This document shows positions 12,609 through 44,300 of a DNA stretch of 64,000 nt, one piece after another. Position numbers and translations under genes: made by a program. Below the pieces are notes generated by a model. The model ran no database searches. It was not told where the DNA came from and saw only the letters and a list, made by a program, of their open reading frames with translations. Numbering within the stretch: position 1 is the stretch's first letter; each line of letters begins with the position of its first letter. Origin of the DNA: Paragyromitra xinjiangensis (lineage: Eukaryota > Ascomycota > Pezizomycetes > Pezizales > Discinaceae); the NCBI GenBank assembly GCA_038503065.1, contig JBCAMK010000007.1, forward strand, positions 186,001 to 250,000, written 5' to 3'.

Positions 12609-12639
12609 GCACATCAGCAAAAACAATTTTCTACTCCCT

Positions 12640-13160: not shown

Positions 13161-13295
13161 CCATTCACATGATATCACTCGTACGTGCGGAATAGGGTAG
13201 AAATCAATTAGGATTACTATTACTAAAGACTAAGAAATATCGGATATAGATAATCCTTCGCAGCCTCGCACGAAACAACAGATAAACAAAGACAA

Positions 13296-13560: not shown

Positions 13561-13626
13561 GAAAGGCGACGCATATCCAGTCAAAAATAAACGATGCTCC
13601 ACACCCCTCAACACCCCCCTAAATCC

Positions 13627-21224: not shown

Positions 21225-21299
21225 GCGACATGAGAGGGATGAGGACTACCGAATCATCAACCTGAGTAGGTTGGAGATATCATAGCTATTTTAAGGTTA

Positions 21300-21940
21300 T
21301 GGAGTATGTTTTGAAGGCTCGGGAGGGATGGCCAATATCCTCGTGGCGGGGTGGAAGTCAGGAGCGAGAGGTACATGGAGTATGTACTGGAGGCTTTGGA
21401 GGGATAGAAAGTGAGCGTAGGATAGCCAATATCCTCGTGGCGGGGTGGAAGTCAGGAGCGAGAGGTACATGGAGTATGTACTGGAGGCTTTGGAGGGATA
21501 GAAAGTGAGCGTAGGATAGCCAATATCCTCGTGGCGGGGTGGAAGTCAGGAGTGAGAAGTACTGGAGGCACGGAAGTGAGTGTAGGATAGCTAATATCGT
21601 CGCTGCGGGTGGATATGAAGTATGTACTGGAGGCACGGAAGTGAGTGTAGGATAGCCAATATCATTGCGGCAGGTGGATATGAAGTATGTACTGGAGGCA
21701 CGGAAGTGAGTGTAGGATAGCCAATATCATTGCGGCGGGAGAGAAGTCGAAGGCTTGTAGGAAGTCAATCTATAAGGGATACAGATATGTTATAAAGGAT
21801 TTGGAGAGAATAGAAAGTAGGCAGAGGATCGAAGCTGGAGGGCTTGTAGGCAGTCAATTTATAGAGGATACGGGGTATGCTATAGAAGATTCGAAGACAA
21901 TAGAAAGTAGGCGAAGGATGATCAGTATCCTGCAAGGACT
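21300..21940. repeat. E1 tandem repeat, about 94-bp unit
   Basis: Units share GCCAATATCCTCGTGGCGGG, then GGAAGTCAGGAGCGAGAGG and GGAGTATGTACTGGAGGC. Copies start near 21331, 21425 and 21519, and degenerate shorter copies continue to about 21940. The array lies between the transposase stop and the right subterminal palindromes of E1. Short open frames here follow from the repeat. Confidence 0.75.
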
Positions 21941-22039
21941 CTGAGGGGTCGAATAAATAGGACCAATAAAGATCCATTTACCACATCTAGAGCTGCAATT
22001 AGTAAGCGCACTTACCCCAATCATTCAGTGATGATTAGC

Positions 22040-22255
22040 ATTATCCTCCCGGGGATAGGCAGAGAATGAAGGGCGCTCCAGGAGCGAATAGTTGGCAAAG
22101 AGGGACGGCAAGCTCCTCCACGAGGAAACATCGAGTCGGGGAGTGGCAAAATCCTCCAGGAGGATTGCTGCTATCCTCCATAGCGCCTGGAGGTTAGGAA
22201 GGTCAGGGAGAAAATGTGCTCCCGGGGAGACACAGCTAATCTCCAGGAGCGGTAA
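22040..22255. repeat. E1 right subterminal palindromes
   Basis: Contains CTCCCGGGGA, CTCCAGGAGC, GCTCCTCCACGAGG and the perfect odd-centred palindrome AATCCTCC-A-GGAGGATT (about 22149-22165), ending with CTCCAGGAGCGG beside the inverted terminus. It mirrors the left subterminal block of E1. Confidence 0.7.
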
Positions 22256-22269
22256 TTATTTTTGCTGAT

Positions 22270-23252
22270 GCACTGTAGGTCCGGGGGAGACGCGAAGGTT
22301 ATATTCACGCATATCCTCTTCTCTAGGCCTATCACGGAACTCAATTCCACCTACAGGGTTTTTTTTCCATTTCTCCCTTGAACTAACCATGGACTTCCAA
22401 TGTGCGTCCGTTGCAGCAGTCTCCTTCACACCGTTTGCGAGATACGCTTGCATCTCCACCATTGAGGGCTGGGCTCCGTGGCGGCTCTTAGGCCCCAATA
22501 CACGCTGCTCCATTTCCTCATCCGATGGCACAACGCATGGACGAGCCGCACGGGGAAGTTGGGGTAGGAGCGAAGCACGAGAGGGAATAGGAGGCGGGGC
22601 GAAAGATGGAGGACGAACAGGTGTGTTCGAACTGGTTGGCGGAGGAGGACTCGGGCTTCGGATGCCATTCCGAGAAGCCGGAGTCGATGGAGTGACATCT
22701 ATATTAGGTGTTAGCTCTACTCTGAATCTTGGAAAGTTTTCATTCACCGTCTGCTAGCCCAGCAACCTTCTTTCTCCCACAGTACTTCCCATGAGTTGGG
22801 GGTCTCCCTTTCTTCACCACCCCCCCATTAGCTCCGATGGTGGCATTGCGTTCCCGGTTCTTGTTGCGGCGTCTGTTGTGAGTCAACGATAAAATCACCG
22901 CCAAAGCAACGCTCTCGGAATAGTTCCACTCGCACAGGGCACTCTGGACTTTCTGCACCAGCACCATACGCGTGGAACGATTCTTGACCGAGCTCCAAGA
23001 CATTCCAACCTTAAATGGGTGAGGGGGTAACGCCAATGCCTTACGAGCAATACGCCGCCGACGGATATACTCGGCCCTCTCCGCCTTGTCCTTGTAGGAA
23101 GAAAACCCCATCTGTTTCCATACAGGCCTCCGATCAGACGTCTCTAGTAGCAGCTCCACTTTCTCTGGGTCTACCTTCCTCTCGTGGAGCGAGGTTTCGT
23201 CAAGCCCTTTGGTATCCCCAAAGGTGAGCAGTGCTACTTGAGAGAAACTTCG
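22270..23252 (-). CDS. E3 accessory gene, N-terminal part, split by E1
   Basis: Minus-strand coding stretch in two frames. The upstream part (open from about 23252, including DTKGLDETSLHERKVDPEKV and WKQMGFSSYKDKAERAEYIRRRR) is basic and helical. It changes frame near 22747 to NENFPRFRVELTPNIDVTP, a Pro/Ser-rich linker and WKKNPVGGIEFRDRPREED. The frame then enters E1, where a stop follows three codons inside the terminus. Joining it to the segment ending at 12608 restores the frame. The frame change at 22747 could be an indel or an unrecognised intron; the start codon is uncertain. No family recognised. Opposite orientation to Tnp2 and location inside E3 suggest the second protein of a two-gene CACTA element. 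Confidence 0.5.
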
Positions 23253-24329: not shown

Positions 24330-24359
24330 ATGCAGAGACTACAACCCAAATGGTACAAC
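24330..24359 (+). CDS. E3 Tnp2 first codons, cut off by E2
   Basis: An ATG at 24330 opens MQRLQPKWYN, reaching the left end of E2 at 24360. On the other side of E2 the Tnp2 frame resumes with KWAKGEERECRC at 41302. The junction is in frame (W-Y-K-W if a CAAG target is assumed). The flanking tetramers are CAAC (24356-24359) and GAAG (41301-41304), so the target duplication is not exact. That these are the Tnp2 first codons is inference from frame and position; the segment is too short for an independent homology claim. Confidence 0.4.
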
Positions 24360-24375
24360 ATCAGCAAAAAATATA

Positions 24376-24500
24376 TGTCCCTGAGACTCACTACAGTATC
24401 CTAGGGAGTCCCATCTACTCCCGCGATCCCCCGGCGACCCCGGTTGTCCCAGGGACCCTCCGCAGTCTACCCAGACCGTCCCTGGTTCCTCGGCGCACGA
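24376..24500. repeat. E2 left subterminal repeats
   Basis: GTCCCTGAG, CTAGGGAGTCCC, CCCCGGTTGTCCCAGGGACC and CCGTCCCTGG occur within about 120 bp of the left end. The core is the odd-centred palindrome GTCCC-A-GGGAC. Confidence 0.65.
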
Positions 24501-24634
24501 CTTCATACCTGCTGAGTCCTCCTGATTCAACTTGATAATGAAATGCCCTCCTTTTGTTGGCAGCTGCTTTCGTTTGTTTGCCCTACAATAGAAGCTTTGA
24601 TCTTCGCGATCTCATTCATAGAATCTCACTCGTA

Positions 24635-24647
24635 GCGGACCGTCCGC
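24635..24647. repeat. E2 internal palindromic word, best copy
   Basis: GCGGAC-C-GTCCGC is a perfect 6-bp inverted repeat around one base. Related words (GGACCGTCCG, GGACCGTACG, GTACGGTCC) recur through E2 in coding and non-coding DNA on both strands, for example near 26697, 26730, 30751, 31281, 32583, 34843, 37085, 37120, 39239, 39278 and 41030. Confidence 0.75.
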
Positions 24648-24894
24648 ATACCGCGCCTGGACCATACGGAATTTGGTGTTCGGCGAAAGCCCCGTTCTCG
24701 ATCCATCTATCGTACCCCCATTCACAGCGCAAGGTCTGGGGTTGGGTTGAGTCCGGCGTTACCATCGTCGAGGATGCGTATTCATAACTGCTCTTGGCAG
24801 ACACAATCGGTCATATGCCTGGGCTATAAGAAAAGCATAGTTCGCCGACTTCACCAATTAACTCAATCTCATTGGCCGTCTAATATATAGTCTA

Positions 24895-27800
24895 CTAATA
24901 TACAGAATAATAGGTATCCAAATCCATATGATTGTTTATGAGCCACACCTTCGGTTGGCTAGCAGTTTCATCGCCTTCTCTTTCTGGTACCAAGTGTACA
25001 GCTCCCTCTATGCTCGACACAGGCGTGACGTATCGATCTCTAGGGTCCTCCTCTACCGCAACGCATCCGTGATATCGATCTGGCAGTCCGCTCGTTTTGC
25101 AGTATTTTGTTCCAATTATCATTGCGAGTTCTACTGCAGAGGGTGAACGACTGTATATGCTTCGTCCGCTTTTGGTAGTTTTCAGAACGTGGGTCTTAAT
25201 TCGGTTAATCGCATTTGGTACTAGTAGAGCGGGCGCTGGGGGTGTGTAGCTGAAGTAGAGTAATGGGATTGCTGCCTTACGTCCTTGGAGAGTATCTTGC
25301 GTACGGTCCTCGGAGTGCCGTGTCCAGATGGTGTGTCGAAGCCCACCACCGTTTCGCCAATTGGGGGCGCACCTCAGAAGTTGCTTCTCCACATCCAAAG
25401 GCCTTTGAAATGGCTGATAGAAGTATGCGATAGAGTTGTAAACCTTGATACGTGTTCGTTGTGGATAGTCCGCGTCCTCCCCACATATTGACCTAAAGAG
25501 ATCTACGTCCCATTCTTCGATCATTCTATCCTTAAAGCATGAGGCTAAGTCGCTAATGCCAAAAATCATTTGAGCTTGAGCTAGCGAAACTGGTTTCATT
25601 CCTTTGATTGCTCCAGCTAATTTAGGTGGAGATAGCACAAGTGGGGCAGGCGTGAACGGCACATCTATGGTCGGTATGCAGACGGGCTGCTCCGGATTTT
25701 GGGCTGCGCGGCGCTTAAGACGTTTGGTCCGCGTATTCTGCTTTCGAACTAGATTTTATCAATAATGAGGCTCATGAATTCTATTGTAGCAGTGTACTTA
25801 CTATCGGGGTGGGAAAGTTTTAATACACGCGCACTCTCAGGCTTGTGGTAGCCCCTTGAAGCAAGAAACTTGAGTGTCCGATCCATATATGCCAGGTTCA
25901 GTTTCCTGTCGTTCCAACGAAGCATTTGTTTTTCGTAATCCACTTTGTTTGACGCTCGGTAGGCATCCTTAATGCTTTCTACGTGTAGAAGCTCCGAAAT
26001 GTCTGTACTGAAGTTGTCCGGCGAGCCCATATATCGGACGCAGTCAGCAATATGTATAGGCAAGTGCATTTTGATGAAGGAAAAATCGTTGACTTTCAAC
26101 TCAAGCGCGCGGCGTGCTCGTTGGATTTGGGCCTCAGTCATTGGTCGTCCAGCCTCGGACCGTCTGCAGACCAGCTGATCCAACATTCTGGTAACTCGCT
26201 TCTTTCGGGCGGGTGTTTGGCGGAATCGGCGGAATATTGATTTTGTCTGGTGGAAGGTTACTAGTCTCTTATGTAGCCACCGTAGGGTTGCCTCTGATAG
26301 GCTTCTTTGGGAAGCAAGAATCATAAACTCGCACATCGCACGTGTGGATGTCATAACCTTCGTACGGTCCACGTTCTGCTTGCGCTTCGTACGGCTAATC
26401 AAGAGTGGTGCCAAGCAAACCAACAGAAATCTTAGCATCGTCCTCATTTCCTTACCTTTCCACTGACTGACATCCTCATATTCCCTCTTGAAGGGTGAAA
26501 ATCCGGGATAATTGGGCATTTTTTTGAATCGCTGGTTGAAGCGGATTAATAGCCCCTCCTTCCTAAGAAAGGCTATGATCCAACTTATTAGATGCTTAAA
26601 GAGCCCAAGCATGAACTGATGTAACCAGTCAGGTTGCCATAGCTTATAAGGATTACATAGTGGGTAGTCCCAAAAGCTATTTTCTACAGGTTCTGCGAAC
26701 CGTCCGCGCAATTCCTCCTGACCGTCCGGAGACCGTGCGAGTTCTCTGTACTCGTCGGGATTTCGTGCATCTCCGGATACGATACGAGACTCTGCATCCT
26801 TTAATTCGTGTCCCAGCTTGTCGGGGGCTATCTCACACATCGGACAGCTTCCGTGTTTGATGCGTGTGAGGATAACATGTTCTTGATAATCGGCAATCCA
26901 AGCAGCTAAAATAGGATAGCAATCTCTACGTTGGCCATCTGAGCAATCCATTAAGATGCCGCATTCAGATAAATCCAAATTACGTAGAGGTTTGAGTACT
27001 TGTTGGACAGCACAATGCCATGTGTCGTGGATTTCGCCGTTTTCTGGATTTTTAGGTGGTACTGGAAGAAGAGCCATCAGAATCCAAGCTCTTTTGGATG
27101 CTTCTCGACGGATATCTTTGCGAATGTTTCCGATGCTCATGTAAAGAGGCCATGCCGCTTTGTCTCCGGAGAAATTCGTGAGATGGGTTTTATCAGACGC
27201 ACATAGCACTGGTATAATTGTTCCACCTTCCGGTATTTGTTCCTGCTAGGTAGCCCACAGTTAGCACAAACCACCCCACCATCAGCAAAAAAACGGATTG
27301 TCGCCCGGTCCGCCCAATGCATCAGGCGACCGGGGCGGTCGGGGCGGAATATAGCCCTCCCTCAGGCTGTAAATTTTGCCCTTCACGTCTGGGCGACAGC
27401 TTACTAGAGGTCGGCATGGGGGCGCCCTAGGTTCAGGAGGCTATTCTCTGGGCGACCATGGAGGATTGACGAGCATCTGGAGGAGAGCAGCGCGCCCACA
27501 GAATCACATTTTCAGCAGGTCGCCCTGTAGTCTAGTTTGGAGGCTTTAGCCCATATGCTTGTTTACAATTGTTCTATTATTTCTATGGATCTATATAGTT
27601 TTATATGTACATGTATCTGTTCTTCGTACTCTACGGGTAGGGGGGGGGGTTGAGCAGCGGATCGACCATATGGCGGAGGCGGCGGAAGCTCAGGCAGCGG
27701 ATCGACCATGTGCCAGAGGCGGCGGAAGCTCAGGCAGCGGATTGACCATGTGGCGGAGGCGGCGGAAGCTCAGGCAGCGAATTGACCATATGGCGCAGGC

Positions 27801-30179
27801 AGCGGAGGCGGCTGCAGCAAATCGACCAATTGGCGGAGGCGGAGGAAGCTCAGGCAGCGGATCGACCATATGGCGCAGGCAGCGGAAGCTGCAGCAGCAA
27901 ATCGACCAATTGACTGAGGCGGCGGAAGCTCAGGCAGCGGATCGACCATATGGCGGAGGCGGCGGAAGCTCAGGCAGCGGATCGACCATGTGCCAGAGGC
28001 GGCGGAAGCTCAGGCAGCGAATCGACCAATTGGCGGAGGCGGAGGAAGCTCAGGCAGCGGATCGACCATATGGCGCAGGCAGCGGAAGCTGCAGCAGCAA
28101 ATCGACCAATTGACTGAGGCGGCGGAAGCTCAGGCAGCGGATCGACCATGTGCCAGAGGCGGCGGAAGCTCAGGCAGTGAATCGACCAATTGGCGGAGGC
28201 GGAGGAAGCTCAGGCAGCAGATCGACGACCTCCAGGAGGCGGCGGAAGCTCAGGCAGCGGATCGACGACCTCCAGGAGGCTGCAGAGGCTCAGGCAGCGA
28301 ATCGACCATATGGCGCAGGCAGCGGAGGCTGCAGCAGCAAATCGACCAATTGACTGAGGCGGCGGAAGCTCAGGCAGCGGATCGACCATGTGGCGGAGGC
28401 GGCGGAAGCTCAGGCAGCGAATCGACCATATGGCGCAGGCAGCGGAGGCTGCTGCAGCTGTGGCGGAGGCGGCGGAAGCTCAGGCAGCGAATCGACCATA
28501 TGGCGGAAGCGGAGGAAGCTCAGGCAGCGGATCGACCATGTGGCGGAGGCGGCGGAAGCTCAGGCAGCGGATCGACGACTTCCAGGAGGCAGCGGAAGCT
28601 CAGGAAGCGGATCGACCATATGGTGCAGGCAGCGGAGGCTGCAGCAGCGAATCAACCATATGGCGGAGGCAGCGGAGGCTGCAGCAGCGAATCGATCAGC
28701 ATATTGAGCTCGCTTAGGCGGAAGCAGAGGAAGCGGATCGAAGCGAGTCTAGGAGGCATATCAGCGGAAGTCAAATAAACGGAATCAAGACGTTACCTAG
28801 GAGGTTCTTTGCAAGCAGAGCTTGGTACTTTGAGCCTAAAAGTCACGATGTTAGCGAAGTACTATGGTACAGCGAGGTAGGGAATTGGTGGGAGGGAATA
28901 GGGGATGGGTGAAGGCATAGGGGTTGGGTGGGAGGGAATAGGGGGAAGCAATAGTAGGAAGGACGGGAGAGGTGGAGATTGGTGTCTTATTAGGCGTTGC
29001 TTTGGCGACGGCATGGCGACTACTAAGCGATGACTAAGCGACCTGGAGATTTTTGAAAATCGCTAAGTGCGTGGGGGGAGGCGAGGTGAATTTTGCTAAG
29101 TCCCGAGTTTTCTGGGACTTAGAGAAAAATCGATCGGGCAGCCTGCTGGATTTCGCTAAGTGCCACATCCGGGTGCAGGTGGTCGCAGCTAAGCTGCAGC
29201 CGAGCGCCAGGAGGCCGGAGCGCTGTGCAGCCTGCGCCCACACAGGCCAGCGCTTGGAGCAGCTCGCCTAGGCGATCGGGAAGGCCACAAACGCAGCGGG
29301 CGGAATATGGCCTTCCAGAAGACAGGAAAGTGTCGGGGCGACATTTTTTTTTTGCTGATGACAGTAATCCCAGACCGTACGCACCTGTGTCTCCCACCAC
29401 CAATCCCCGGTGTTGATTTCGTTATAGATTCTTTCACCTTGGGAGTCATGCAATTTCACGGGCGTGTAATCAATGTCCTCACAGAATGGCAGATGTGATA
29501 GTAATAATCGAATGCATTCCAGGACATCCCGTTTGTAGAGCCTCCCCCCTTCTATATCTTCCACAGTCCAACTCTTTGGTCCTAATCCAAAATTGATTCG
29601 TTCCAGTAGAGCCCATAGATCGTCCGCGGATTGAAAACTTTGATTCGTATCACCATCAAACCCGCGTTCCATGTAGTCATGTATAGCCGTCTTCGTCGTA
29701 TTTGAATCCATAAACCACTTCGCCAGTTCGTAGTCTTTTGCGTTCTGAAAGGGATTCCAGGGATTCCAGTCTGCACGTTGATGCTCCGAGTAGATTGACG
29801 CTGCACCATACGTTTTCCCTGCAGAATTTGGGCCATAAACATCTACAAAGTGTACGGTACGTGTTGCATCCGCGGTACAGGTAAGGTCAGGGTCGACTGG
29901 TTCAGGAGGGTCCGGTGTGGAATCAAATTCTGTTGTATCTATTCTAAAGTCCGCGGGGTGAACTAAATTGAAGTTAGTTGATCGTCAAGCTAGGGGGATA
30001 GTCAAGATCGGCATACTATCTGGGCTCGGGAATGGATTGGGGGGCCGCGGTGGCGGTTCCAATGGCTCATAGCTTGACAACATCGACGCGTAAGCACATC
30101 TCGAGATATGTACGTTTAATCCTCGAGATGTTGGAAAACTTCTTGCACATGAAGAGCATACGTTCCCACTAGAAGGCAT
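24895..30179 (-). CDS. Plavaka-type transposase of E2 (three exons, one internal stop)
   Basis: Exons on the minus strand: 30179-29385, 27245-25802 and 25748-24895; introns 29384-27246 (donor GTGCGT, branch GCTAAC, acceptor CTAG; hosts element B) and 25801-25749 (GTAAGT...CTAG, 53 nt). Phases agree and give about 1030 residues, a usual length. Order: zinc finger CSSCARSFPTSRGLNVHISRC at residue 8; Pro-rich linker; GDWWWETQ at about 258; ASDKTHLTNFSGDKAAWPLY; DCSDGQRRDCYPILAAWIAD; CPMCE; PDWLHQFMLGLFKHL; STDISELLHVESIKDAYRASN; C-terminal AVHLVPE...WLINNHMDL. The acidic residues in SDKT, PD-LH and SE-LH are candidate catalytic residues (inference). An in-frame TGA at 29985-29987 precedes CGA CTA-like coding and may be a C-to-T nonsense change; without it the frame is open throughout. 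Confidence 0.8.
27281..29359. mobile_element. B: non-autonomous element inside the E2 transposase intron
   Basis: The left end ATCAGCAAAAAAACGG and the right end (inward, opposite strand) ATCAGCAAAAAAAAAATG are both followed by TGTCGCC. This is the terminus also used by E1 and E2. Subterminal GGGCGAC/GTCGCCC words occur near 27300-27345, 27390, 27450 and 27520 and near 29000-29035 and 29335. There is no transposase; the centre is a 40-bp minisatellite. The insertion lies wholly between the 5' and 3' splice sites of the first transposase intron, so splicing could in principle remove it. No target duplication seen (flanks CACC and GACA). Confidence 0.7.
27651..28710 (+). repeat. 40-bp minisatellite open in all forward frames
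   Basis: About 26 units of exactly 40 bp without visible length change, each containing CAGGCAGCG (or the variant GCAGCAGCA), ATCGACCA and a GCGGAGGC-type purine-rich part. Because 40 is not a multiple of 3, successive units are read in successive frames. Every frame therefore encodes the same 40-residue cycle: an Ala/Glu-rich part (AEAAEAQAADRP), a Gly/Ser-rich part (GGGGSSGSGST) and a basic part (WRRRRKLRQRIDHM). Unit variants (CCATATG, CCATGTG, CCAATTG, CGACCTCC) alternate in blocks, implying block duplication. No start codon with gene-like context was identified. Confidence 0.85.
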
Positions 30180-31714
30180 TGCGTAGTGGTGTATGGCTAC
30201 GATGTAATCGTGGGTGAGTTGCTATTCCTCCAAGGCACCCAGGTCTGTATAAAAGGCTATGGTCCACGGACAGCACGCAGGGGCGTTGTCCTAACTCCAT
30301 TCTCGAGCACATCGACCAACTTGAGTACTGCCCGAGTGTGAACAAGCGATAGGCCGTAACAGGACAGCAGTGCACAGCTAGGCATAGAACGTCTAGCAAT
30401 GTGGGCAATACGGTCTAACGCTGTCTCATCCAATAGGCTAGATTAGTTAACAGAGGAGATAGACGCAAATCAGGGCCACAGATAATTATATCTTATCAGT
30501 ATAGTGTTCAAGGACAACCAAGGGAGTGCGTAGATATGGTGTTGGTGTTGATGCGTGCAGTCAGCAGTGGTATGCCTGTAGTAAGAATTCCTAGCTCAGG
30601 TCGAATATAGGTGTTGCCACTAATCGCGAATTCGAAGGTTAGCCCGGAGGGGCGAATGTATCGCTCAGTTGTGGTTTGGTTTAGGCGCAGATTGTTGTGG
30701 AAAGCAGCAGCCCCCTGACGGGTATGTTTAGGACTAAACGATAAGCAAATGCGGACCGTCCGAGGACCGTACGAGGACCGTCCGTTAGACATGTGCTAGG
30801 TTCGGTAGAGGTGGTGTAGTACAGTCCGTAACCGGAGACTGCCAAGAGGGCAGTTAGCAGGCTCCGTAACTGGGCAACCACCAACTAAATTGAATTATGT
30901 ATCAAGTATAGCATAGGCTACACTAGGGAGCTCTTTCGCAGGAGCCAATCAGCCAGTGAGGCCTAATGAGAAGCAGTCAAATAGCCTTAAGCATAACATT
31001 ACTTGGTATCGTGGAAAATCTTTATGCCTATCCCATATTGTAGTTGCTATAGGAGAGCATTATTTGACTACATTGATCATATAGCCTAGCCGCAAAAAGT
31101 TAATGATCCGTTCCTGCTAGCTAAATTAATGAGAAAGGGAAAATCTACATCTCTTATTTTGGCGAGGCAACACTGGGCGCTGAACATAGACCAAGGGATC
31201 TGTAAGTAAGCTGCCCTATTGACAGCAGGACGAACCGCCAACATGTAAGCGATCCCTTGCCTCAGCAAAAGCAAAATAATGTGGACGGTCCCAAAGCGTA
31301 CGCGGACGGTCCCAGTATTTTCGGTTATCATTAGCGCCCGCTCTAGCACACTAACCCTACTAGGTAATGTTGGATTTGTGCTTTTTCTCGTCGCATCTGA
31401 CGCCGACACAGATAAGGCAATGACTGTTACATCCAAAGAAATAGTGACGACACTCGTGTATGGTTTCTGCATCCTGAATATGTGCACCCTAAACATACTA
31501 CTAGACAGGGCAAGAGTTTAGACGCAAGGGCAGGAGATATTTCCCGAGCAGAAAGGCCGAGGCCCTCAAAAGAAAACAAAGGCATAGATACGGAAGAGCT
31601 ACTCAGGCATAGCTTCCGACCTAATAAAGGTATTAAATGCAGGCTTTCCCTCTCATCTGGATTCCATTTCCACGCACCCTTGATAGCCCTCACAAATTTT
31701 CCACAAGCTGCAAA
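30180..31714. promoter_or_regulatory. E2 divergent intergenic region
   Basis: Lies between the minus-strand transposase start and the first plus-strand E2 frame. It carries a cluster of three E2 words in 34 bp (30751-30784) and a pair near 31281-31315. No convincing gene; short frames lack features. It is likely the regulatory region for both directions. Confidence 0.4.
30751..30784. repeat. Triple cluster of the E2 word
   Basis: GGACCGTCCG, GGACCGTACG and GGACCGTCCG stand in head-to-tail order with a 13-14 bp step, upstream of the E2 transposase gene. This looks like a multi-copy protein binding site. Confidence 0.6.
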
Positions 31715-32143
31715 ATGACTCCTCCTCCTGTCCACTTCCCCGCTTCTTTCTATCTCGCACCTTCTGAAAGAAGCCAATCCGTCTTTCCTTCCTCTCAAGT
31801 ACAGCCCCCCTACCTGGTATCTCCAGAACTTGAACTGCGTACTCTTCCCCACGGGAGACACGGAGCAGACGCAGACCAGCATAGTATGGAGGAGGATCCT
31901 GTGCTTCAATCCTCACCATCCCATCCCGTCCTAAGGCCCGGAGCGAGTACCGTAGCCGACGGGTCTGAAGGGGCTACCATGTCCTATGATCTTGCCCAGC
32001 TTACCGAACCTGTGCTGCCTGATCCGCAGTCTGAATTGTCAACTTCACAACAAACGACGTCGGATTCGGTGTTTCAACTCATAGATACTAGTTATTACCG
32101 GACCCGCAGGCAAATCCAGTTCTTCTGTACGAGATCCTGTCCA
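31715..32143 (+). CDS. E2 Pro/Ser-rich hypothetical protein
   Basis: From the Met at 31715 (MTPPPVHFPASFYLAPSERS) the frame runs 142 residues to a stop at 32144-32146. It is rich in Pro, Ser and Gln and probably disordered. A plus-strand frame at 32186-32476 (GRVYILKFLPHAHGVGTALV) directly downstream may be another exon, but I could not confirm splice sites. No family recognised. Confidence 0.35.
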
Positions 32144-32718
32144 TGAAAGTGAGTTTTACTGGCACTAACACGACGAGGAAAAGGGATGAAGTCATGCATG
32201 CAGGGCAACTCGAACCACCTCACATCAGAGCCTCAGCTTGGCCGAGTCTATATTCTGAAGTTTCTACCCCACGCTCACGGTGTTGGCACAGCCTTAGTAA
32301 GGGGGCAACGGCGATGTGGTTGGGTGATGGTCACCAAACATGGGGCGGGAGCAGCTGCGGTAGCTACTTTGCTTGACCTAGGCGTTGTTGTTCGAGGCAG
32401 AGTCAAGAGTTTACGACAAGTTACTTTTCAGTCCGAAAGGCTTGTTCTTGGGAAATTGAGTTGGTCTATTTTGTAGAGGTCTGTTGGTGGTGTTGCATTT
32501 GTCTGTCGTTGTTGGTAGAATAAATTTAGGTTGAACCGTTCCTTGCCAAGAAGGATCGCGATATCGTTTGGCTGTCAGGGTATGCGGACCGTACGGGTAG
32601 AGTCCAAGGACCCTGTGGCAATGTGAGCCCTAAGCCCTATAAGGATTTAATGCCCACTTAGGCTAGGTCCTCCCGGCAAGATCCACGACAGCTTCCAGAC
32701 ATCATTTCAACTGGCATA

Positions 32719-34211
32719 ATGGCCACATCTATCCACGGTGATCACTCCCGCTCAAGTTATACCTTTCGCTCTACGACTTACATTACTGCTCCTCGGACTC
32801 CTCGTTCAGACACTTTGAATAAATCCCCCACCGAGCTAAGAAGGGGTGAGTTATCCAAATGCGCCATCACAAGCCCGCTTCCCTCTGTCGTGCCTTACCT
32901 CCCCCCCCCATGTGCACTTCTTACCCAGTTGCCGAATGAATCCTCAATCGATACGCAGACGCTGCTTTCCAAAGTGGAAAAATATCTTGGTAGTATTGAT
33001 GCTGGCCTTTCTTCCACCTCTCCATTATGCTTTGCTCCCCATCCCTATGATAAGCCTTGGATCCTAGAAAGGGTCTCGTACAAACAGTACGAAGCCATCA
33101 AAGACCTGGTGAATGCGAAGGTATCCGAATCCAGTGCGGCTAAGCTGTCAAGATTGAATTACTACGACGATAGGAGACTCATCATTACCTTCCCTTCAGC
33201 GGCTCACGCACAATTATGCAACATTGCCATGAATATTCGCGATCAGATGTGGAGTAAAGGCTTTTATTGGAGCACTTGGTCTAAAGAAGACTCCATTTTG
33301 CTATCAAGGGATACAAGTATGCTCAAATATCCCGCTCTGATTCGCTTTCTCTCTGTCTTGGATGCTTATTATCCCTCCTTGAAGGTCTCCCGCTTCGTTC
33401 CGGGGAAGAAGAAATAGGACACACACCCGATGACTCCTTAACGTTCCAAGGGTTTGATTACCCGTTTATCGTCTGCGAAGTGGCCGTCTCCCAGGAGCTG
33501 CACCTTGCTATGAAGAGGAAACGGGCGTATTTGCTTGGTTCCAAGAGCCAGATCAAGTGCGTTATTATTGTCAAAATTGATAAAGGATCGCGGGTCCCAG
33601 ACCCAGTCAAGCGCCCGCGCGCTACTACTTCTCCGGCAGTAAACAAGCGGGGGCGGTCCGATAGCATTGGTACACAGAGTGGTCGGCTACAGGGAGAAAG
33701 GTCTGAAGATGAGGAGCCGATTGCTGAGGAGGCTCATTCTTCGTCTACCCATCAGTCCACCGGACCCTCCCCGCCACAGTATAGGCGCGGCTCTGTGTAC
33801 GTGTACACTACCGAGCTCGTACCGTCCAATAAAGATAACCGTCGCACCCGCAAGGTTAAGGCAGTTATCGAAGACCTCGTAAGTGTAAACTCCCTATACC
33901 TATTCGTATCTAACAGTTGTTAGGTGTTCTGGCCTGAAGAGCCCACCCAAATACTGCGCCTAGAATGGGCAGACATTATTGGAGGTGATATTCCAGATAA
34001 CGAGAAGGATAAGAAAGTGGAGATTTCGTTTCAATTCCTGCATGACGCAATGCGTCATTTGTTGCGCCCCGAAGCGGTTGTGCAAAAGTGGGGAGAAGAG
34101 AGTGATGTGGATAATGAATCGGAAATTTCGAGCGAGGAAGAAGTGATGCCGAGTACTCCGAGTCCGAAGGAGGATAAAACCGATAAGGATTGGGTTGAAG
34201 GGTATAGTTAA
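32719..34211 (+). CDS. E2 cargo protein, possible restriction-endonuclease-like fold
   Basis: Starts at the ATG at 32719 (MATSIHGDHSRSSYTF). The first 230 residues include RLNYYDDRRLIITFPSAAHA, then a purine run (33402-33413) where the reading changes frame by one base. The second frame reads GEEEIGHTPDDSLTFQG, PFIVCEVAVSQ, RAYLLGS and KCVIIVKID. This spacing (PDD...EVxxSQ...Wl/LLGS...VxIIVxI) is like the PD-(D/E)xK-type domain common in fungal transposon-linked and effector-like proteins, though the usual Lys after Glu is replaced (E-V-A). An intron (33879-33923) then joins in phase to an acidic tail ending at 34211. Frameshift and missing Lys both weaken the nuclease idea. It is E2 cargo, between transposase and SNF2 gene. 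Confidence 0.4.
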
Positions 34212-35115
34212 GGGTTAAGTTTAGGGTAGAGGCTGCTCCTGGGGTTTTTCTTCATTAGCATCGCGGGCTCATGATGGGTTTTCTTTTTTGGATTAGCGGG
34301 GCGCTCAATGCAAAGATTGTGGACTTCATGTTTGGTGGGGTAATATGTGCGTATCGTACTAGGTCCGCTAGTTCGCCCGAGAATCAGAAATTGGAATCGA
34401 TGCGTCCGGTCCGCACCGACGAGGATAGCTAGGGGTAAACTCAAAGCTCTGTGATCAAAGTTGGGAAGAGCTTCTGACTTTGTATAAATGTATGGTGCTG
34501 GGAGCCGGTAGTATCCAGGGATTAGAGAGGCGGTGGGCAAACAATACATCTATGATATCACAGCAAGCAAATTGATGCGGACCCAACGCGCACGGTCCGA
34601 CTTTTAGTGTTGCTCCCGAGCCCCGATATCACGCTGTTTGCCCTCGGGATAACCTCGCCTACAAACCCTGCATCCAAACATTCTGAGCAATCTGAGTCGG
34701 CACCGCACAGATATTTGCTCAGAAACTTGCTTAGATTACACCATTATTCCCTATGTTTGGTGTTTCAACTCAAGCTCGGCAGTATTTTGACCAAGGCTGG
34801 AATGGGCTCGGCTCGGCAACATGCTTTAGTCATAGCGTGCACGGACCGTGCACAGATCGTTCTCTCTGGATCCGCAGAGCCCTGCTTGGAGCAGTAACTT
34901 CACAGACTTCAACCTCACTGCGAGTATCATTTTGTTTGCCCCACCAAGCCCCCCTTCGGCTAATCAAGTTTGCTAGTCTATCTCCATATCTATATAGATA
35001 AGGTTGCGCACTCTTCTTGCGATCGTAAGGTTTGAGCTTCACCCTTGTTTCCAACCGAACGCCCAACATCTTGCTTCCACAACACATCTCTATCAAGCCC
35101 ACACTAATTCTTCCA
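34212..35115. other. Intergenic region within E2
   Basis: No supported gene. It contains GCACGGTCCGAC at about 34590 and GCACGGACCGTGCACAG at about 34839, variants of the E2 word. It probably includes the promoter of the SNF2-type gene. Confidence 0.4.
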
Positions 35116-38100
35116 ATGAGGCGCCATAGGGAAGCATCAAGGGAGTTAGGCAATGATCCCTATCTAGGGTCGCTTAAGGACGACCCATACGGGGACTTTG
35201 AGGTCCCAGACTCGGATAAGGAGGGGAATAGGGGCCAAAGGTAATCCCAGAGACTCAAACGGCCCTTCTAGCAGAGCGAGCTCTTTCTTCAGGCACAGAT
35301 ATTGATAGATGGGCATGGTAGAAGCCCCTCCTCCGATGACAACACGTCATGGCCATCTAAGCCACAGCCCTCGCGCTCCTTCAGTACGGGTAAAACAACA
35401 AGGACGAAACTCGCTCCGTCCACGCCTCAACACAGAAGCAAACAACAGAGCCCTCCTGCTCAAAGTCCGACGGGAAACAAAGCTCTTGTCGTCGCTAAGA
35501 AGCTTGGATTTCAAGGAGACCAAACTAAAGACTATACAGACTGGATCGCAAACTTGAAAGAGGAATTCATCACTGGCCAACATCCTGAGATCGTTGTGGG
35601 GCCAAAGCAGTTGCATGAAGACGGACACCAGGATGTATGGCAGACAGCCGTGCAAGATTTTGTCGATCAGGAGCCTCGTTTCAAATCGGGCCTTTTCTCT
35701 AAGAGCGAAGCTACCCGCGCTGCACATGAATTGCTCAGAAACCAGGTGAAGAAGCTCCGTCTCAACAAGAAATCCGTTGGAGGCCTGGGATCCAAGCGTA
35801 GCCACGAAGTCTTGGAGGATAGACCCCAGACTGATCAAGCTATAGTAAGCTTAGATCTGTCGAAGCTTCCCTCACCAAATTTCACCATTGCTCTTTGGAG
35901 GACTGGTTTCTCCATGCCCTTCCTAAGCCAAATTAGCCAACTTACCAACATAAAGGATCTTCAGGATTGGGTGTGCACGAAATTGGGGATTCCTCTAGGT
36001 GCGGCTATGATTGAGGCAGTGTTTCCTGTTTACAACGAAACCTTTCTCGACATTCTGGGTGTGACAGAGAGCGGCAGTAAAGCCCGTCTGGATGTCTCTG
36101 ACCAGGCCTCGTGGAATTCAGTGGTACCATTGGCACAGCAGGTGGCGAAAGATCCCGCTAAGTTTGCCGGGCTCCGTCTCGAAGCTAGGAAGGGTGTGGC
36201 GGAAGAGCTTGGGCTTAGATGGAACGGGCGCAGACCGGCCGAGGAGGGTCCCATCACCAAACGCTTGAGGACGACTTCAGAAGGCGGTGATGACGACAGC
36301 TACCAGAACGGTCAGGATGACAACGATACCCATAATGATGAGAAACACAATAGCAAGGGCAAGGCTGCTGAGTTACCGGAAAGAAGCCACGACGACAAAG
36401 ACTTGGAACTCGCTAGTGATGCACCCCCTGAGGAGGAAGAGGAGGATGAGGACGATCCTGTTGTTGAGGGACTTCAGATGCAGGGGATTATTGGGACCTT
36501 CCACGAGAAAGAAGCCGAGAAACCACCCGTGGATCTTAATATATTCCTTAGTGGCGACGATGACCAAAAGGATCAGTCCGATCCGAGGCACCGAGAGGAG
36601 AATAACCCTGGTGGGCTGGGAGAAGGACATAGCACCACTAACGAAAATGAGTTTTTTGGATTGTGTGTTCGCCCGTGATTGTAGTTCAGCGTGTTATGCT
36701 GCTAACAGTTTTTATATCAGATGCACGAAGAACTACAATAACGATTTCGAGCACGAGTGTTTTGACCAGGCACTTAGTGGACTGAATGCAAAGGCATACG
36801 ATATGATTCCTGCCGACGGTGGTGTGCAAAGGTTTAGTATTCCCGGCTGCGGCTCTGTAAGGTATTATCCACACCAAGTGTGGGGAATACAATTCGTTGT
36901 GCAACGCATTATCAACGAGGACGGTCTAAATTCGTGTCTGGTGGCTGATGATATGGGTATGGGAAAGGTATGTGGAAACTCGAGTTGTGTTTGCATATGT
37001 TATATTGATAGCATGCATATGTAGACGTTTGTCGCGCTAGGATCTCTCTACCACCTGAAGTGGCTTGTTGCGAAGGCTGCAAAGGACCGTCCTCTCCCCT
37101 GTTGCGCAGGACGCAGACCGTCCGAGATACCGGAGCATAATTTTTTTAACTGCCACTTGCGGTGGGCAGAACGGCCCACTATCATCATCGTGTAAGATAG
37201 CTGTCAGTCCGCATACTACCCTTGGAATGTCTACTGATGTATCTAGGCCACCTTCGCTCCTCAACACTTGGGTCCGAGTTTTGATGCAACTTCCCGAAGG
37301 ATTCAGTATCGTCGTTTTGCACGGGAGTCGGAAACCAACAGCCAAATCCGTTAACGCAGACGATGAACGCAATCATAAGATATATCTCACTAGCTATCAG
37401 ACTTGGAGGGCTCGGTATAATAAGTCACTTCAGGGAGCAAGGTTTGGCATCGGTATATTCGATGAGTCCCACCACGTTAAGAATAGTAAGACCATGATTT
37501 TTGATTCCTTGGTGGGACTGAACTGCAAATACAAAATACAGTTATCTGGGACGCCCATGCATCACGCTGTCAGTGACTGGGTGGTACAAGCTCGTTGGCT
37601 TCACAAAGGCTCTGAGTCTAACCTGCTAGCAGCTCATGGCTATCAACGCATGGCTGCTGCTATTGATATCGTTAAAAAAGACAAGGCCGCCAACGATGCC
37701 AGCTACGCTGCGATCCGCGACTGTGTATACCCGTGGACGATCCGCAGATGGGCCGAAACGACACTTGCGGATGGAAAACCGCTGATCAATATCCCAGAAC
37801 TAGTGACGGAAAATGTTACTATACATTATACAGAGGAAGAAGCGGAAGCTCTCGATATATGGGTGAAGGAAGAAAAGGAGCGGACCGCACAAAAATACAA
37901 CTCGGCCCTTCACGGATGGAGACTGGCGTCCTTCCATGGGGACCTTGTGGAGACCGAGCGACAGGTCGTGGAAAAAAAGTCGGTGTTTCGCACGGAGTGG
38001 GATAAGGCTACGTTTAAGGGCTCGCCAATCTTTCGATGGCTTAAGAATGACTTGATTCCTTTGCTTACGGCAGCGGGAGAATCAGACCCTCCACACAAAG

Positions 38101-38753
38101 CTGTCCTGTTTGCCCCCTTGCCAGCTCAAACATACTTGGTAAACTGGGTAAGCCCCAGCCTTCCAATCCTACGCCATCCGTTACCATACTCCTACTTTTA
38201 TCTATTGTGAAGCTAAGGGCGTTTTAGTGGTTCAAGACCTACTTCTCCGAGATCGAATGCTACCACTTCAAAGCGACACTCAACGGTGGAGAGCGAGTGC
38301 AACTCCTTGAAGCTTTCGATGTTTCTAAAAAGCCGGGGGTCCTCATAATCACTCCGGCCCTAGGTGGTAACGGCATCAATCTTATTTGCGCCGACCACCT
38401 CGTAATCTTACAGAAATTTTGGAACATGAATGAACAGAAGCAAGCTATGGCCCGTATCCACCGGATTGGACAGAAGCGTAAGTTCGAGCGCCTTTATTCT
38501 CCATACTAAAGGCGGAATCGACGACCGCATCACGGAGCTTCAGATGGCGAATGGTCGTTTTGAAGCGAGGGTTATGCATGGGCTCATGGGAAAGGATCTT
38601 ACCTACGAGCAGATCCTGAACACGCGGACTACCAGGCAGGGGGAGCCCCTCAAAACGCAACCGAATAGCATCTCGGAAAGCAAGGAGGGAGAGGACAGTA
38701 GCAGCGAGGATAAACTGAACGAGGATGCGAGGACCCTCTTTAACATTATTTGA
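35116..38753 (+). CDS. E2 cargo SNF2-family DNA-dependent ATPase
   Basis: A two-lobed Swi2/Snf2 ATPase. Exons: 35293-36662, 36721-36967, 37025-37191, 37247-38147 and from 38228, with introns of 55-80 nt in matching phase. A possible leading exon starts at the ATG 35116 (MRRHREASRELG), but its junction is unresolved. The first 500 residues are an unrecognised domain with an acidic linker. Motifs: YPHQVWGIQFVV (motif Q-like), DDMGMGKT (Walker A) created by the 36968-37024 intron, RPTIIIVPPSLLNTW (Ia, created by intron 37192-37246), FDESHHVKN (DExH-type box), LSGTPMHH (III), GGNGINL (V) and ARIHRIGQKR (VI). Near 38480 the frame slips by one (KRKFERL versus SAFILHTKGGIDDRI), so the end at 38753 needs a frameshift or an implausible 34-nt intron. 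SNF2 enzymes move nucleosomes or other proteins on DNA; a role in target access is inference. Confidence 0.75.
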
Positions 38754-40010
38754 TCCTGTCAGCGGCCATTTTTCCCCATCACATATTTTCTTTTGGAAAC
38801 GCTCTCTACGGGGCCACATATAAGTATTTTATTTCTTTAGGCGTTATGCAGGTATGAGGCGCTAGGTGTCTCATTTTGGTATTTGGGTTGAGACGGGTCT
38901 GCGGAGGGTCTGCGGAGGGTCTTAGGGGCTATTTTGTGTGTATACTCGATTTCAACTTATACTCTCTGCTATCTATATTTTCCCCTATATCAAGCAGTCT
39001 TTTGATTCAAAGACATGTAGTTTTAGGCTTAGCTCGCAATTCTATGAGTCAATCAATTTCTCATTCAGCTTTGACCAGCTCTAGTAACGACCAAAACAGA
39101 TAACTTACAGATCCCACCATCTCCCCTGCAGCTCCTACTTCTCAAACAGCTCCCACTTTTTCCAAGCATAGGTACCGCGTTATCGCACTTCTATAATCAT
39201 TCCACTTCAAATTCAACACGGTCATGTTTACAGATGACTCGGACGGTCTGGAGACCGATCAAGAGGCCTCATTTTTAGGTGTGTACGGTCCGATGGACCT
39301 TTCACCCGCGTAACGTTGACACCAACCAAAAACATAACTAACGCGTGGTCGAGATCACGGACGAACAAGATCTAGGCATCTATCACGGGAGGTGGAGTGT
39401 TTAGCAAAGAATACGCCGCGGCAAAGAAGCTATTCGAGCACCCCTGACACCGATCCGGGACATAGAATGGCACGAAGCCAACAGGTAACATAGTCACCCA
39501 TACAAGTAAGCTTTTGCTTACACAAGATAGGGACGAGTGCGTCGGGAAAGTGGCGTAACCCGACCAGATAAAACCCCAAAACGCGTAACATCTACAAGCA
39601 AAAAGCGTCTGGGTGTTCATTGGGCGCTTACAACCTAATAAACGGCTATCTCAAGTTAGGTCTTCAGACAGTCTACGTCAAAGTGATAACACGCCCACTT
39701 TCACCAACCACAACAAACACCCGGGTAATGGGAGTGAACATGGTAGCGAAGGTGGTGGTGTCGAGAACAGCGTCATAAATGCACCCCAACGATTCCACCG
39801 GCGCGATATGATACCACTCGAAAATATAGGAACATTCAACATAACCAATACACGCATACAGGGCCCCGTTCTTGCTGAAGCCCCTTGGCCTAATACGAGG
39901 TCTCGTGATGATATGATTGGTCAATGCTGGAAAGACTCGATTGCGTTTTTGACAAAATCTCCGGTCTGAAGAATGTCCCAGGATCCTGACGCGATATCGT
40001 TGCCGCTGGT
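38754..40010 (+). other. Region upstream of E2 DUF6532-like gene
   Basis: 38754-39600 shows no gene but several E2 words (GGACGGTCTGGAGACCG at about 39240, TACGGTCCG at about 39280). The plus-strand frame 39613-39969 (RDMIPLENIGTFNITNTR, then IGQCWKDSIAFLTKSP) is probably the N-terminal exon of the following gene, but the splice junctions between 39960 and 40035 are ambiguous. Confidence 0.35.
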
Positions 40011-40865
40011 ATGTGTTCTGTACCTGACAGCCTGCATCAGCCTGGACTCTCCGTGTTTGCTCAAGGATATTTAGCTACGAAAAAGAATCTCGAATGTGCG
40101 TGGCTATCTCAGAACTCCATGAGGAAGTCGGTAGCCGTTGATTACAAATTAAAACTCCGCAGACCTAATGAATGCAAGGAGCAAGTGAGAAGCTTGCTGT
40201 TGAACGACGCATTTGCCGGAAGGTCGGTGGATATGGTACGTCGGACCGAACGAGGGCCGTCCGGGAAATGATCAGCCTGACACATGATAGGACGGTGTAC
40301 CAGTATTAGCATACTTTAGTAGCCAGGCACTACGTGCGGCAGTAATCAGGTATTTCTTCAAGGAAGGCGGTTTAGCTTACCAAAAAGAATTACAAGACTA
40401 CTTCTATCCACTGAGGTGGACTACGATTCTAATCACAGCAACGGCAGTTTCGTGCGCTCTCCAGGACTATTCGGAGACTGGGGTTAAGGCTAGTATAGTG
40501 ACTGAGTTCAATCAGGAGAACTTCTCTAGTAAGGATCCCACAGCATAGGTAATTCAAATGCTAACGGAGCTAGCGGTATATTACCGGCTACAGAACACGG
40601 CCAAAGGACTAACGGAGGCACGCCGCTCAAAATTGCTAGCCTGGTACAACAAAGAGGCCGAGAAGGAAGTCAAGAGTAGAAAAGGTCTCCCTGCAAACCA
40701 AACAAAGGGTCACAAGGACCAAATGGGCGATTATTGTGGTGACCTCGATGAGAGTGGGGAAGAGAGTGACGAAAGCGCCGGCAGCACTGGAGGGGACCAC
40801 GGGGAGGACGACGGGGAGGACGGCGAGGACGGCGAGGAGAACGATGGGGATGATGGAGAGGACTA
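40011..40865 (+). CDS. E2 DUF6532-like accessory protein, one internal stop
   Basis: The first exon (LSVFAQGYLATKKNLECAWL...) ends at 40235. The intron 40236-40290 (GTACGT donor, itself containing an E2 word) joins to DGVPVLAYFSSQALRAAVIRYFF...YPLRWTTILITATAVSCALQDYSETG, which has the helix pattern and 'ATA..CAL.(W/Y).TG' ending of DUF6532. An in-frame TAG at 40546-40548 interrupts, but the same frame continues (VIQMLTELAVYYRLQNTAKG) into a basic part and a strongly acidic Gly/Asp/Glu tail to 40865. The stop could be a C-to-T change of a Gln codon. The upstream exon may begin at 39613. E1 encodes a similar protein, so I infer a shared accessory role. Function unknown. Confidence 0.5.
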
Positions 40866-41029
40866 AGAGAAATAGCAGACTATGGGAAGATTAGGTTGAG
40901 GGCCTGCGGGCAATTAGTAGCAAGATATAGAGGCTCAAGCAACACCCACGACATCACCAATAGTAGAAAAGTAGAACGGAATAGATTATTTTAAATCGCG
41001 ACAAAGTTGATCAAAACGTTAGGTCCCAA

Positions 41030-41290
41030 GGACCGTCCGCAAATACACCAGGACCGTCCGCAGCTTCCTAGGAGCAAACCAGACTGTCCACCATATTCCC
41101 AGATATATTCACGCGCGATCCCACAGGCAAACCACGAGCTTCCCAGGGAAACAAAGCTTAGTTCCAAGGACTCCTAGGGACTAGTGCCAACGTCTCCCGG
41201 GATACCATCTCATCCCTCGGGATCGGGTAGTGTCTCAGCTATCCCAGCTATCCCCGGGACCCCCAGGGACCCCCAGGGACTATTTTTAAC
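41030..41290. repeat. E2 right subterminal repeats
   Basis: Two GGACCGTCCGC copies (41030-41061) are followed, from about 41125 to 41280, by CCCAGGGA, CTCCTAGGGACT, TCTCCCGGGATACC, CCTCGGGATCGGG and tandem CCCCCAGGGAC. They mirror the left subterminal block of E2 and end beside the inverted terminus at 41300. Confidence 0.65.
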
Positions 41291-41300
41291 TTTTCCTGAT

Positions 41301-44300
41301 GAAGTGGGCTAAAGGAGAAGAAAGGGAATGCCGATGCCAGATCTATCAAGGGGTAGTTCACTATGAGAAAAAGAGAAATTGGTATCTTCACCAGAACCAT
41401 CAGGCATGGTTAGATCGACGTAGTTTGGCCTCGCAGGGATCCGTTCCTCCTTTGAGCATGAGCTCACAGCAAGGAGAGGCAGCACAGGTTAAATTATTCA
41501 CTACAAGCTAGATGCATTTATTGTAATATATTATGTATATACTGATCTTTTGTATATATCTGCTTTAGCAAAACAAGTCTTACAATGAAGAAGACCTGAT
41601 CTCATATCTTGACGAGGATTATCCTGAAAGTGACGAACAATACACTGGGCTAGATCAGGAGGACATCGACAATCGAGAATACAAGAGTGATGACGAATAT
41701 CGAGACACAGGGGTCGACGCTAGCGACATGGAATACGAATCTAGCGACGAAATTAAACACCGAACTCGCGCTACAGAGATTTCTATGGCCGGGGATATCG
41801 GGTATGAAAATGATGGTGGACCTCAGGGTATGGAAATCTGTGATGAAGATATCCCTTGGACGGGTGTTGAGGGCATAGGAGCCGGGGGTGAGGACGAATA
41901 CAAGAGTGCAAAAGCTCACAATAGAGGTGCCCCTGGGGCGAAGACTATGCATATCCAGTATGGTAGTGACGAAATCGATGGACGTAGCACAAGGCTTATG
42001 GATATGGAAGAAGACAGTGATGCTATAGGCGCCAAAGAGGACTCTGTACGTCCCTCGGGTGACCCTCATTCTGGCAACCCTGGTGGCTACAGCGATGATG
42101 GGCCGACAAAATCCCCACCAGAGTCGTCAAATAATGATACCGAGCATCGTGCGTATGTCTCATGGCTTGCAGATTGTGGCGGAACCCCTGGCTCTGAAAG
42201 TAGCTATCAAGAATCAGATATTGATCCAGCAGATGATATACTACACTATCAGGATGAAAATTCGGCAAACCTTGATACTGATGACGAGCATGTGGAGGAA
42301 TTAGACATGTTGGATTTGGTTTCTGAAACAGGTTCCACAGAATCCGAGTCCTGCAAGGCATACGATCCCAAAGCCCCGATTGTTAATTACGAAGACTTTC
42401 CGTACAGTAGTGTACCGCATGTTGAGATCGAGCGCAAGATCCTACGTCAAATTCACCTACTCCAACTTCGCATGGACGGAAATGTTGCAGATGTGACACA
42501 TGGCCGCTACGTTGATGCGTTCAACAGATTCTATGAGGAGGACAGCATCAACGACGAACCGGGAATTGGCGAAGAAGCTAAGGCCAGAGACACTCTCGCC
42601 AGTGTTACCAATATCAATCATGTACGTTACGACGTTTGCAGAAACAATTGCATATGTTACGCAGCCTTTCCATCATCTCAGGAATGCCACATGTGCGGTG
42701 AACCTTGGCGTGACGAAGGAGGGAAACCACTTCGAACCTTTGATTATATTCCTTTGATCCATTGCCTCCGCCTACTCTGCACAGATCCAAGATATATAGA
42801 AAGGACTATGAAGTACAAAACCTCGGAGTGGTTTCAAAATGCTGTCGACTCCGAAGAACCGCAAACGACTACCCAAGACTTTTGGGATAGCGTCTTGTGT
42901 TCTGTGCTTCGAAAACAATGTAGATTGTGGAAAGATCCCCGGGACATTGGCTTCATATTTAGCACTGATGGATTTTCCTTGTTTAAGGTCGGTGTTTTTG
43001 ATGTGTGGCCCCTACTATTGATCAACGCAAACCTACCACCAAATGAGAGGGTTTTCAAACGGAATATGACTCTTTCTGGGATCATTCCGGGACCTGAAAA
43101 CCCTAAAGATCTCGGCTCATTCCTTACCCCACTAATTGACGAACTGGTACTTCTCCAAAATGGTATCAAAGCCTGGGACGGGCTACGCAAAGAGGAGTTT
43201 ACTCTAAGGGCTCATATAGTTCTTGTAGCGGGCGACACGATGGCTATGGCAAAGTTAATGAAGTGGACAGGTGAGTTGTCATGCTATAGCCAATCGCACC
43301 CTAAACTATAGCTAACGAACTTTAGGGCCAAACTCATATCATTACTGCCGTTTCTGTGATGTTTATGGTATAAGCGCTGGTCATATCTACTGCCCACTTG
43401 AGCCACCCCGGGACCAAATGCCGAAAGTGCCTCAAGCCGACCCAGGACCTGGGGATTCTACTACTAAAAAAAAAAAGAAGCCTACGAAAAAGGAAAGGTT
43501 TTTTCCTGAAAGGGCTTGGGACCCAGAGAATCTTCCCATATACTCTGATGCTACTTTGCGCTCCAACCAAAAGACAGTTGAGAACAAGATGGATTTTGTG
43601 TGGGGTAAGCTGGTGGGAACTAATGGGGAACCAGTTTTCTCTTGACTAAACTCTATTGTATACCCTTGGAGTTTTGCCTCAGATGTGATGCATCTCGTTG
43701 ATGAGAATACGCCACGGCTTTACCTCACCCATTGGATGGGGGTGTTCGAGCAGAAGCAAAATCCTCCTGCAGAAGGATCGAGTGCTACAAATCCCAGTGG
43801 GACGAAAGGGCAAAGAGGTCAGCAAAAGGGGAAAAAAAATAGAAAAGGCAAGGGGAAAAAAAAGGTGAAAGAGCGAGCACAGAAAAAGAAAGGGAAACAG
43901 AGAGAAACTCAAACCGGCGCGGCTGCCCCTGAGATTACCCCCGAGACTACAGAAAAGCCGTTTGGAGGAGAACGATACATCTTGTCCACTAGGACATGGA
44001 GTTTGATAGGAAAAGAAATCTCAGATTCACGTCGATCAATACCTACCGCATTCGGAAAGGCCATTCGGGATATTAGTAAATATCACGCAAGCTACAAAGC
44101 TTCTGAACTACTCAACTTTATGCATTTAGTTTCGCCAATTGTCCTCAACGGGCGTCTACCAGAAGACGAGTATTCTCACTGGCATCATTTGGTCTTGTCC
44201 ACTGAAAAAACTAGACAATATAAACTGTCGATTGAAGAGATTGAAGAGATGGGAGAGGATATGGTCAAGTCGGTAACAGATTATGAACGCCTCTATTATC

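Follow-up and report, generated by a model that had tools for sequence, protein, structure and literature searches.

A preliminary description of a window of 64,000 nucleotides of the Paragyromitra xinjiangensis genome (the whole stretch of DNA that was analysed, C7:186001-250000, in an assembly of 48.2 Mb and 22 contigs, denoted here by C and a number) had placed a 17-kb Plavaka-type transposon at 24360-41300, carrying its own transposase together with SNF2 ATPase, nuclease-like and DUF6532-like genes. The question raised by this locus is whether these genes belong to one mobile element and, if so, what they might do for it. Our analysis indicated that the locus is very probably a damaged multi-gene PlavakaB-type cut-and-paste DNA transposon to which the SNF2 and DUF6532 genes belong; because related elements in the genome repeat the gene order, these two genes look like the transposon's own equipment. 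The extent of the element was defined by termini that occur at other sites and by an array of a short word.

24359..41301: whole PlavakaB-type element, 16,943 bp, of which 2,081 bp are a nested insert
24357..24358: left AA flank (2-bp target-site duplication)
24359..24398, + strand: left terminus CATCAGCAAAAAATATATGTCCC..., starting with CATCAG
41262..41301, - strand: right terminus ...AACTTTTCCTGATG, stopping at CTGATG
41302..41303: right AA flank (2-bp target-site duplication)
24453..41060: array of GGACCGTCCG, 22 copies with no more than 1 mismatch, scattered across the element

The two termini share CATCAG and an A-rich run, which makes them an imperfect inverted repeat. At the left end, the copy on C10, the sole other copy reaching this point, began to match exactly at 24359 and had a different flank. 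At the right end, copies on C13 (98% identical over 3.27 kb), C14 (96%, shorter) and C3 (88%, shorter) all reached the same CTGATG, beyond which their flanks, re-searched with flanks included in the query, diverged from the window and from one another. The ends first proposed were accurate to within 1 base, being 24359 and 41301, and recur elsewhere with other flanks; it had been suggested that the element should be doubted if 41300 were no end in other copies, or if relatives had the SNF2 region at the same locus without Plavaka ends. Within this genome neither outcome was encountered, and 41301 was the end in three of three. A tnp2-type gene (PF02992 Transposase_21, with a weak DUF4218 match) was also observed at 41569-45031, starting about 270 bp beyond the right end.

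PlavakaB elements are described as having CATCA..TGATG termini and 2- or 3-bp duplications (main text of Kojima 2025, PMC12730594). Matching 2-bp flanks were seen in all six of the CATCA..TGATG elements with both ends paired (AA at the window element, CA at a second element in the window, AA on C1, TA on C11, AA at C7:1522237 and AC at the nested insert), the chance of an AA/AA match at the window element alone being 1 in 16. The PF18759 domain, CATCA..TGATG termini and a 2-bp duplication, the last weak on this copy alone, were all present at the window element, and 24359-41301 is classed as PlavakaB-type on domain, termini and duplication, with the transposase compared pairwise within this genome. 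The genes and the insert within it were as follows.

24898..29984, - strand: Plavaka transposase gene (PF18759), in pieces 29361-29984, 25752-27279 and 24898-25755, split by the nested element
27280..29360: nested repeat element, 2,081 bp, with CATCAGCAAAAAAA ends and an AC duplication, foreign to the original element
32720..34211, + strand: putative nuclease-like gene, frame broken (open reading frame list)
35272..38753, + strand: SNF2-family ATPase gene (by PF00176, PF00271 and homologs; start codon not fixed)
35272-36662, 36721-36967, 37025-37191, 37247-38147 and 38228-38508, + strand: inferred SNF2 exons, then a frame break
39589..40866, + strand: DUF6532 gene region, PF20149 domain at 40291-40548, several stops

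The element's own transposase was recovered as PF18759 matches in two exons (187.6 and 50.9 bits; cut-off 26.3). The proposed SNF2 ATPase and DUF6532 genes were likewise supported by matches above cut-off to PF00176 (SNF2_rel_dom, 46.6 bits; cut-off 24.9), PF00271 (Helicase_C, 42.2 bits; cut-off 23.5) and PF20149 (34.3 bits; cut-off 24). The SNF2 model ran for 995 residues across four introns of 55-80 bp, its start codon not fixed, before the frame break, and kept the motifs DDMGMGKT, DESH and RIHRIGQKR; by domains and motor motifs its product is a predicted SNF2-family ATPase. The frame break of the window copy was absent from the C13 and C1 genes. The nested element, with inverted repeats of about 14 bp and an internal 40-bp tandem array, does not figure in the preliminary description. 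It had an empty site in the transposase of the C10 copy, and sequences like it (about 2 kb) were found in dozens of locations genome-wide, several of these beside Plavaka elements. Frame breaks were found in both the SNF2 and the nuclease-like genes of the window copy, and, given these and the nested insert, this copy is probably dead.

For the gene at 32720-34211, the name 'nuclease-like' was not confirmed. Its PDDS..E.AVSQE pattern is one that we take to resemble PD-(D/E)XK-like nucleases; its pieces gave no Pfam match at E<=0.1 and no database homolog at E<=0.001, and its sole relative in the genome (C6:463625-466727, 35% identical) lies more than 100 kb from the nearest Plavaka match found. 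It had no match in the stretches of C1, C10 and C11 searched. The gene was rejected as a module member, as it had been proposed to be, because it does not recur in these stretches and its sole relative lies away from Plavaka.

Elsewhere in the genome only the left part of the window element (on C10, where the match ends at 29962) or only the right part (on C13, where the match starts at 38030) was present, as might be the case if two adjacent elements, or a host SNF2 gene trapped by chance between two Plavaka ends, had been taken for one. Both breaks, however, proved to be insertions of one LTR family, and the rare word GGACCGTCCG spans both halves and the middle. With at most 1 mismatch allowed, 23 occurrences of the word were counted in the window, of which 22 lie inside the element and none in the nested insert (whole-window shuffles: mean 2.21, largest 7), in agreement with the private internal word of the preliminary description. 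Its copies lie on both sides of the C10 and C13 break points and between them, which ties the halves into one element. Of 25 exact occurrences of GGACCGTCCG across the 48.2 Mb, 6 fell in the window element, 1 in its C10 copy, 2 in its C13 copy and 16 elsewhere; a reversed control pattern occurred 48 times. LTR retrotransposon copies of one family were observed at C10:1045477 and C13:902353, where they interrupt partial copies of the window element.

The window's own element had no other full-length copy in this genome, and 29962-38030 matched nothing else in it apart from one stretch of 39 bp; as this part is single-copy, the multi-gene unit is established on a related element, found on C1 and C11, and not on the window copy.

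C1:2806977-2823759: related element, copy 1, 16,783 bp, AA duplication
C11:1526418-1543631: related element, copy 2, 17,214 bp, TA duplication
C7:1578879-1594291, C10:1039260-1042537 and C17:1009350-1014105: partial copies of the same type

Both whole copies have perfect 19-bp inverted repeats and flanks without similarity to each other, and they are 98-99% identical in long blocks, differing by some 0.7 kb of inserted sequence in the C11 copy and by tandem-repeat variation. Right-end pieces of this type on C19 and C7 terminated at one point (within 1 base) though the query continued. Each whole copy has the gene order and orientation of the window element: first a transposase, then a pair of SNF2 genes, with 41% and 39% identity to the main motor exon in the window, and finally DUF6532. 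Here several genes form a unit of fixed order that is whole at two sites; when cargo was listed between paired Plavaka ends, as had been advised, transposase, SNF2 and DUF6532 did recur within this genome. With the same layout at two sites, the GGACCGTCCG array and the LTR insertions at the breaks, the reading as two elements or a trapped host gene was rejected as very improbable. In the C1 element (L043:5171-6319, a region also present in C11), an open reading frame of 383 residues was observed to hold about five tandem proteasome-ATPase-lid-like fragments; AAA_lid_3 was matched in five stretches, which resemble the PRS2 lid, and the frame is perhaps a captured piece of a host gene.

The companionship of these genes was then counted genome-wide, over at least 97 Plavaka, at least 82 DUF6532 and at least 39 SNF2 (PF00176) merged loci, which are lower bounds with the best candidates scored. 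Plavaka lay within 15 kb at 67 of 82 DUF6532 loci, and divergent Plavaka within 15 kb at 62 of 82 (mean 3.05 and largest 9 in a null of 1000 shifts, run with wrap-around and with the sizes of five contigs guessed); at 41 of the 82, divergent Plavaka lay 3.5-5.5 kb away (null mean 0.39, largest 4). Similarly, at 7 of 39 SNF2 loci a divergent Plavaka was present no more than 15 kb away (null 0.57, largest 4), and ordered Plavaka-SNF2-DUF6532 triples were found at 6 SNF2 loci in 4 places (shifted mean 0.18, maximum 3), the element copies behind all these counts being related by transposition and hence non-independent. The remaining SNF2 loci, about 31, lie far from Plavaka, as host genes would. 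DUF6532 also lies inside Plavaka elements other than those described above.

C7:1522237-1531678: standard Plavaka element, 9,442 bp, inverted repeats of 19 bp, AA at either flank, DUF6532 inside
12612-22270 of the window: second PlavakaB-type element, ends CATCAGCAAAAA.. and ..TTTTTGCTGATG, CA on both sides
18762-20480, + strand: transposase of the second window element
14194-14616, - strand: DUF6532 match of the second window element

The standard element at C7:1522237 has three further open reading frames without a Pfam match. DUF6532 is a general Plavaka companion and not special cargo: its place inside the window element stood as first described, but what had been taken for cargo accompanies Plavaka generally.

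A second type of SNF2 gene came to light through a match on C22 (29.9 bits to PF00176). Type II had no significant BLASTP similarity to the type I gene (E = 0.59) and formed 14 merged loci in the genome, some of them fragments. Divergent Plavaka lay upstream within 20 kb at 12 of the 14, at 3.45-3.47 kb in 6 of these, and DUF6532 lay 2.1-2.7 kb downstream on the same strand at 11; both neighbours were present at 10 of the 14, where type II stands between them. The exceptions were C6:1468667 (neither neighbour), C11:1432961 (without Plavaka), C1:2672419 (without DUF6532) and C6:1432276 (DUF6532 only upstream). The small mobile module that had been suspected is thus supported within this genome, by the full-length C1 and C11 copies and by these ten type II loci. 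Both ends could be read in two type II elements.

C17:897967-910675 (12.7 kb) and C5:1268220-1281303 (about 13.1 kb): type II elements, ends CGTCGCGAAAAGC..GCTTTTCGCGACG

The C5 element has CA on both sides and the C17 element has no matching flanks. With these ends, a PlavakaB assignment was rejected for both; their termini fit neither of Kojima's two classes, CATCA..TGATG or TGT..ACA, and are possibly a third Plavaka terminus class.

Transposase domain identity to the window element was 56% for the C1 element, 44-48% for standard elements, 39% for type II and 36% for the second window element; outside this genome, among the matches listed, the best relatives were metagenomic proteins (50-51%) and the best named one was from Morchella (36%). 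The SNF2 motor, in a search that scored the candidates sharing most words and listed the best 120 of 2161, had about ten close relatives outside the genome at 38-45%, two of them from Tuber aestivum, and the next named relatives were near 25%. At least 27 distant SNF2 relatives (20-40% identity) were found on viral contigs. Among the matches listed outside the genome, no contig with SNF2 agreed in length, by eye, with one bearing Plavaka, which speaks neither for nor against their linkage in other species.

That foreign pieces do enter Plavaka is illustrated by the five tandem proteasome-ATPase-like fragments of the C1/C11 element, and the SNF2 gene could similarly be passive captured cargo, without function for the transposon. 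The dN/dS of near-identical SNF2 copies (0.49 from 32 changes and 0.58 from 18) lends weak support to purifying selection and, being only mildly below 1, would also suit passive cargo. Against this, the motor motifs are kept between copies whose DNA no longer aligns and are retained in relatives at 38-45% identity, two dissimilar SNF2 types occupy the same slot, and spacing and order are kept at 10 of 14 type II loci; we consider passive cargo improbable. At the thresholds applied, neither of two dinucleotide indices pointed strongly to RIP in the window element or its flanks.

As it holds several genes and spans about 17 kb, the element might also be taken for a large cargo element serving the host, of the Starship kind. 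The recurrent genes are, however, a chromatin-type ATPase and a transposase-tied domain, with no host-benefit gene recognised, and such a reading seems highly implausible. Closer precedents lie among DNA transposons. Some Plavaka (TET+) carry TET/JBP dioxygenases, proposed to counter silencing by DNA methylation (PMC12730594, main text); the window element is like PlavakaB and TET+ Plavaka in its transposase, termini, 2-bp duplications and an extra gene possibly acting on silencing, and unlike TET+ Plavaka in having an SNF2 ATPase and DUF6532 and no TET/JBP dioxygenase. That main text contains neither the word SNF2 nor the word DUF6532. No PF20515 TET-like match was found in the window, and as the five in the genome lie no nearer than about 45 kb to Plavaka, TET cargo was rejected, by the PF20515 model only. 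An SNF2 helicase has been reported in Inton and Enton transposons (Kapitonov et al., cited in PMC3627910), which, compared by description only, are similar in being DNA transposons with an SNF2 helicase beside the transposase; the passage concerned mentions neither Plavaka nor DUF6532. SNF2_N also appears in host-transposon fusion proteins, where a passage of PMC10799480 classes it as a non-transposon domain. Among 5.39 million papers searched, none had both Plavaka and SNF2, and one had DUF6532, in a domain list that also names Plavaka but draws no link between the two. The impression that multi-gene Plavaka cargo is little described held for the pairing of Plavaka with SNF2, but SNF2 in transposons as such has precedent (PMC3627910, in the passage cited). 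VANDAL/VANC, as presented in part of PMC10398659, is alike in that an element protein is proposed to act on its own chromatin and element-specific words are repeated; it differs in being plant Mutator-like, VANC is not called an SNF2 ATPase there, and the corresponding role here is inferred.

In the mechanism that we propose, the transposase would cut at the CATCA..TGATG ends, the SNF2 ATPase would remodel or clear chromatin on the element, and the GGACCGTCCG array could, speculatively, be an address bound by an element protein. DUF6532 would act as a general Plavaka partner protein, perhaps like the second protein of CACTA/Spm. CACTA/Spm elements, with TnpA and TnpD, have a transposase and a second element protein together with repeated subterminal words. 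The likeness lies in the second protein and the words, the parallel between DUF6532 and TnpA being one of analogy only.

For the SNF2 ATPase, countering host silencing appears the likeliest single role, at somewhat less than an even chance. A part in cutting and insertion is less likely; under that reading SNF2 and DUF6532 would work within the transposition machinery (end pairing, strand transfer, nucleosome clearing at donor or target) and not against silencing. In several element families the two genes keep a constant place next to the transposase, which speaks for it, as does a passage of PMC3627910 in which SNF2 helicases encoded by transposons are listed with other proteins that may take part in transposition. 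In one or more standard Plavaka elements, however, transposase and DUF6532 occur without an SNF2 match, so that SNF2 is not required by every Plavaka, and we regard a machinery role for both proteins as rather unlikely, though the present observations accord with it as they do with anti-silencing. We also put forward tentatively, at somewhat less than an even chance, a broader scheme in which dissimilar SNF2 ATPases were taken up at least twice into the slot between transposase and DUF6532, DUF6532 being the hitherto unrecognised second Plavaka component and SNF2 an optional chromatin-opening or anti-silencing module, maybe acting via the word array.

The recurrence of SNF2 in Plavaka suggests a second route, besides TET/JBP, by which these transposons may act on host chromatin, and the strong tie between DUF6532 and Plavaka offers an initial lead on what this domain of unknown function may do.
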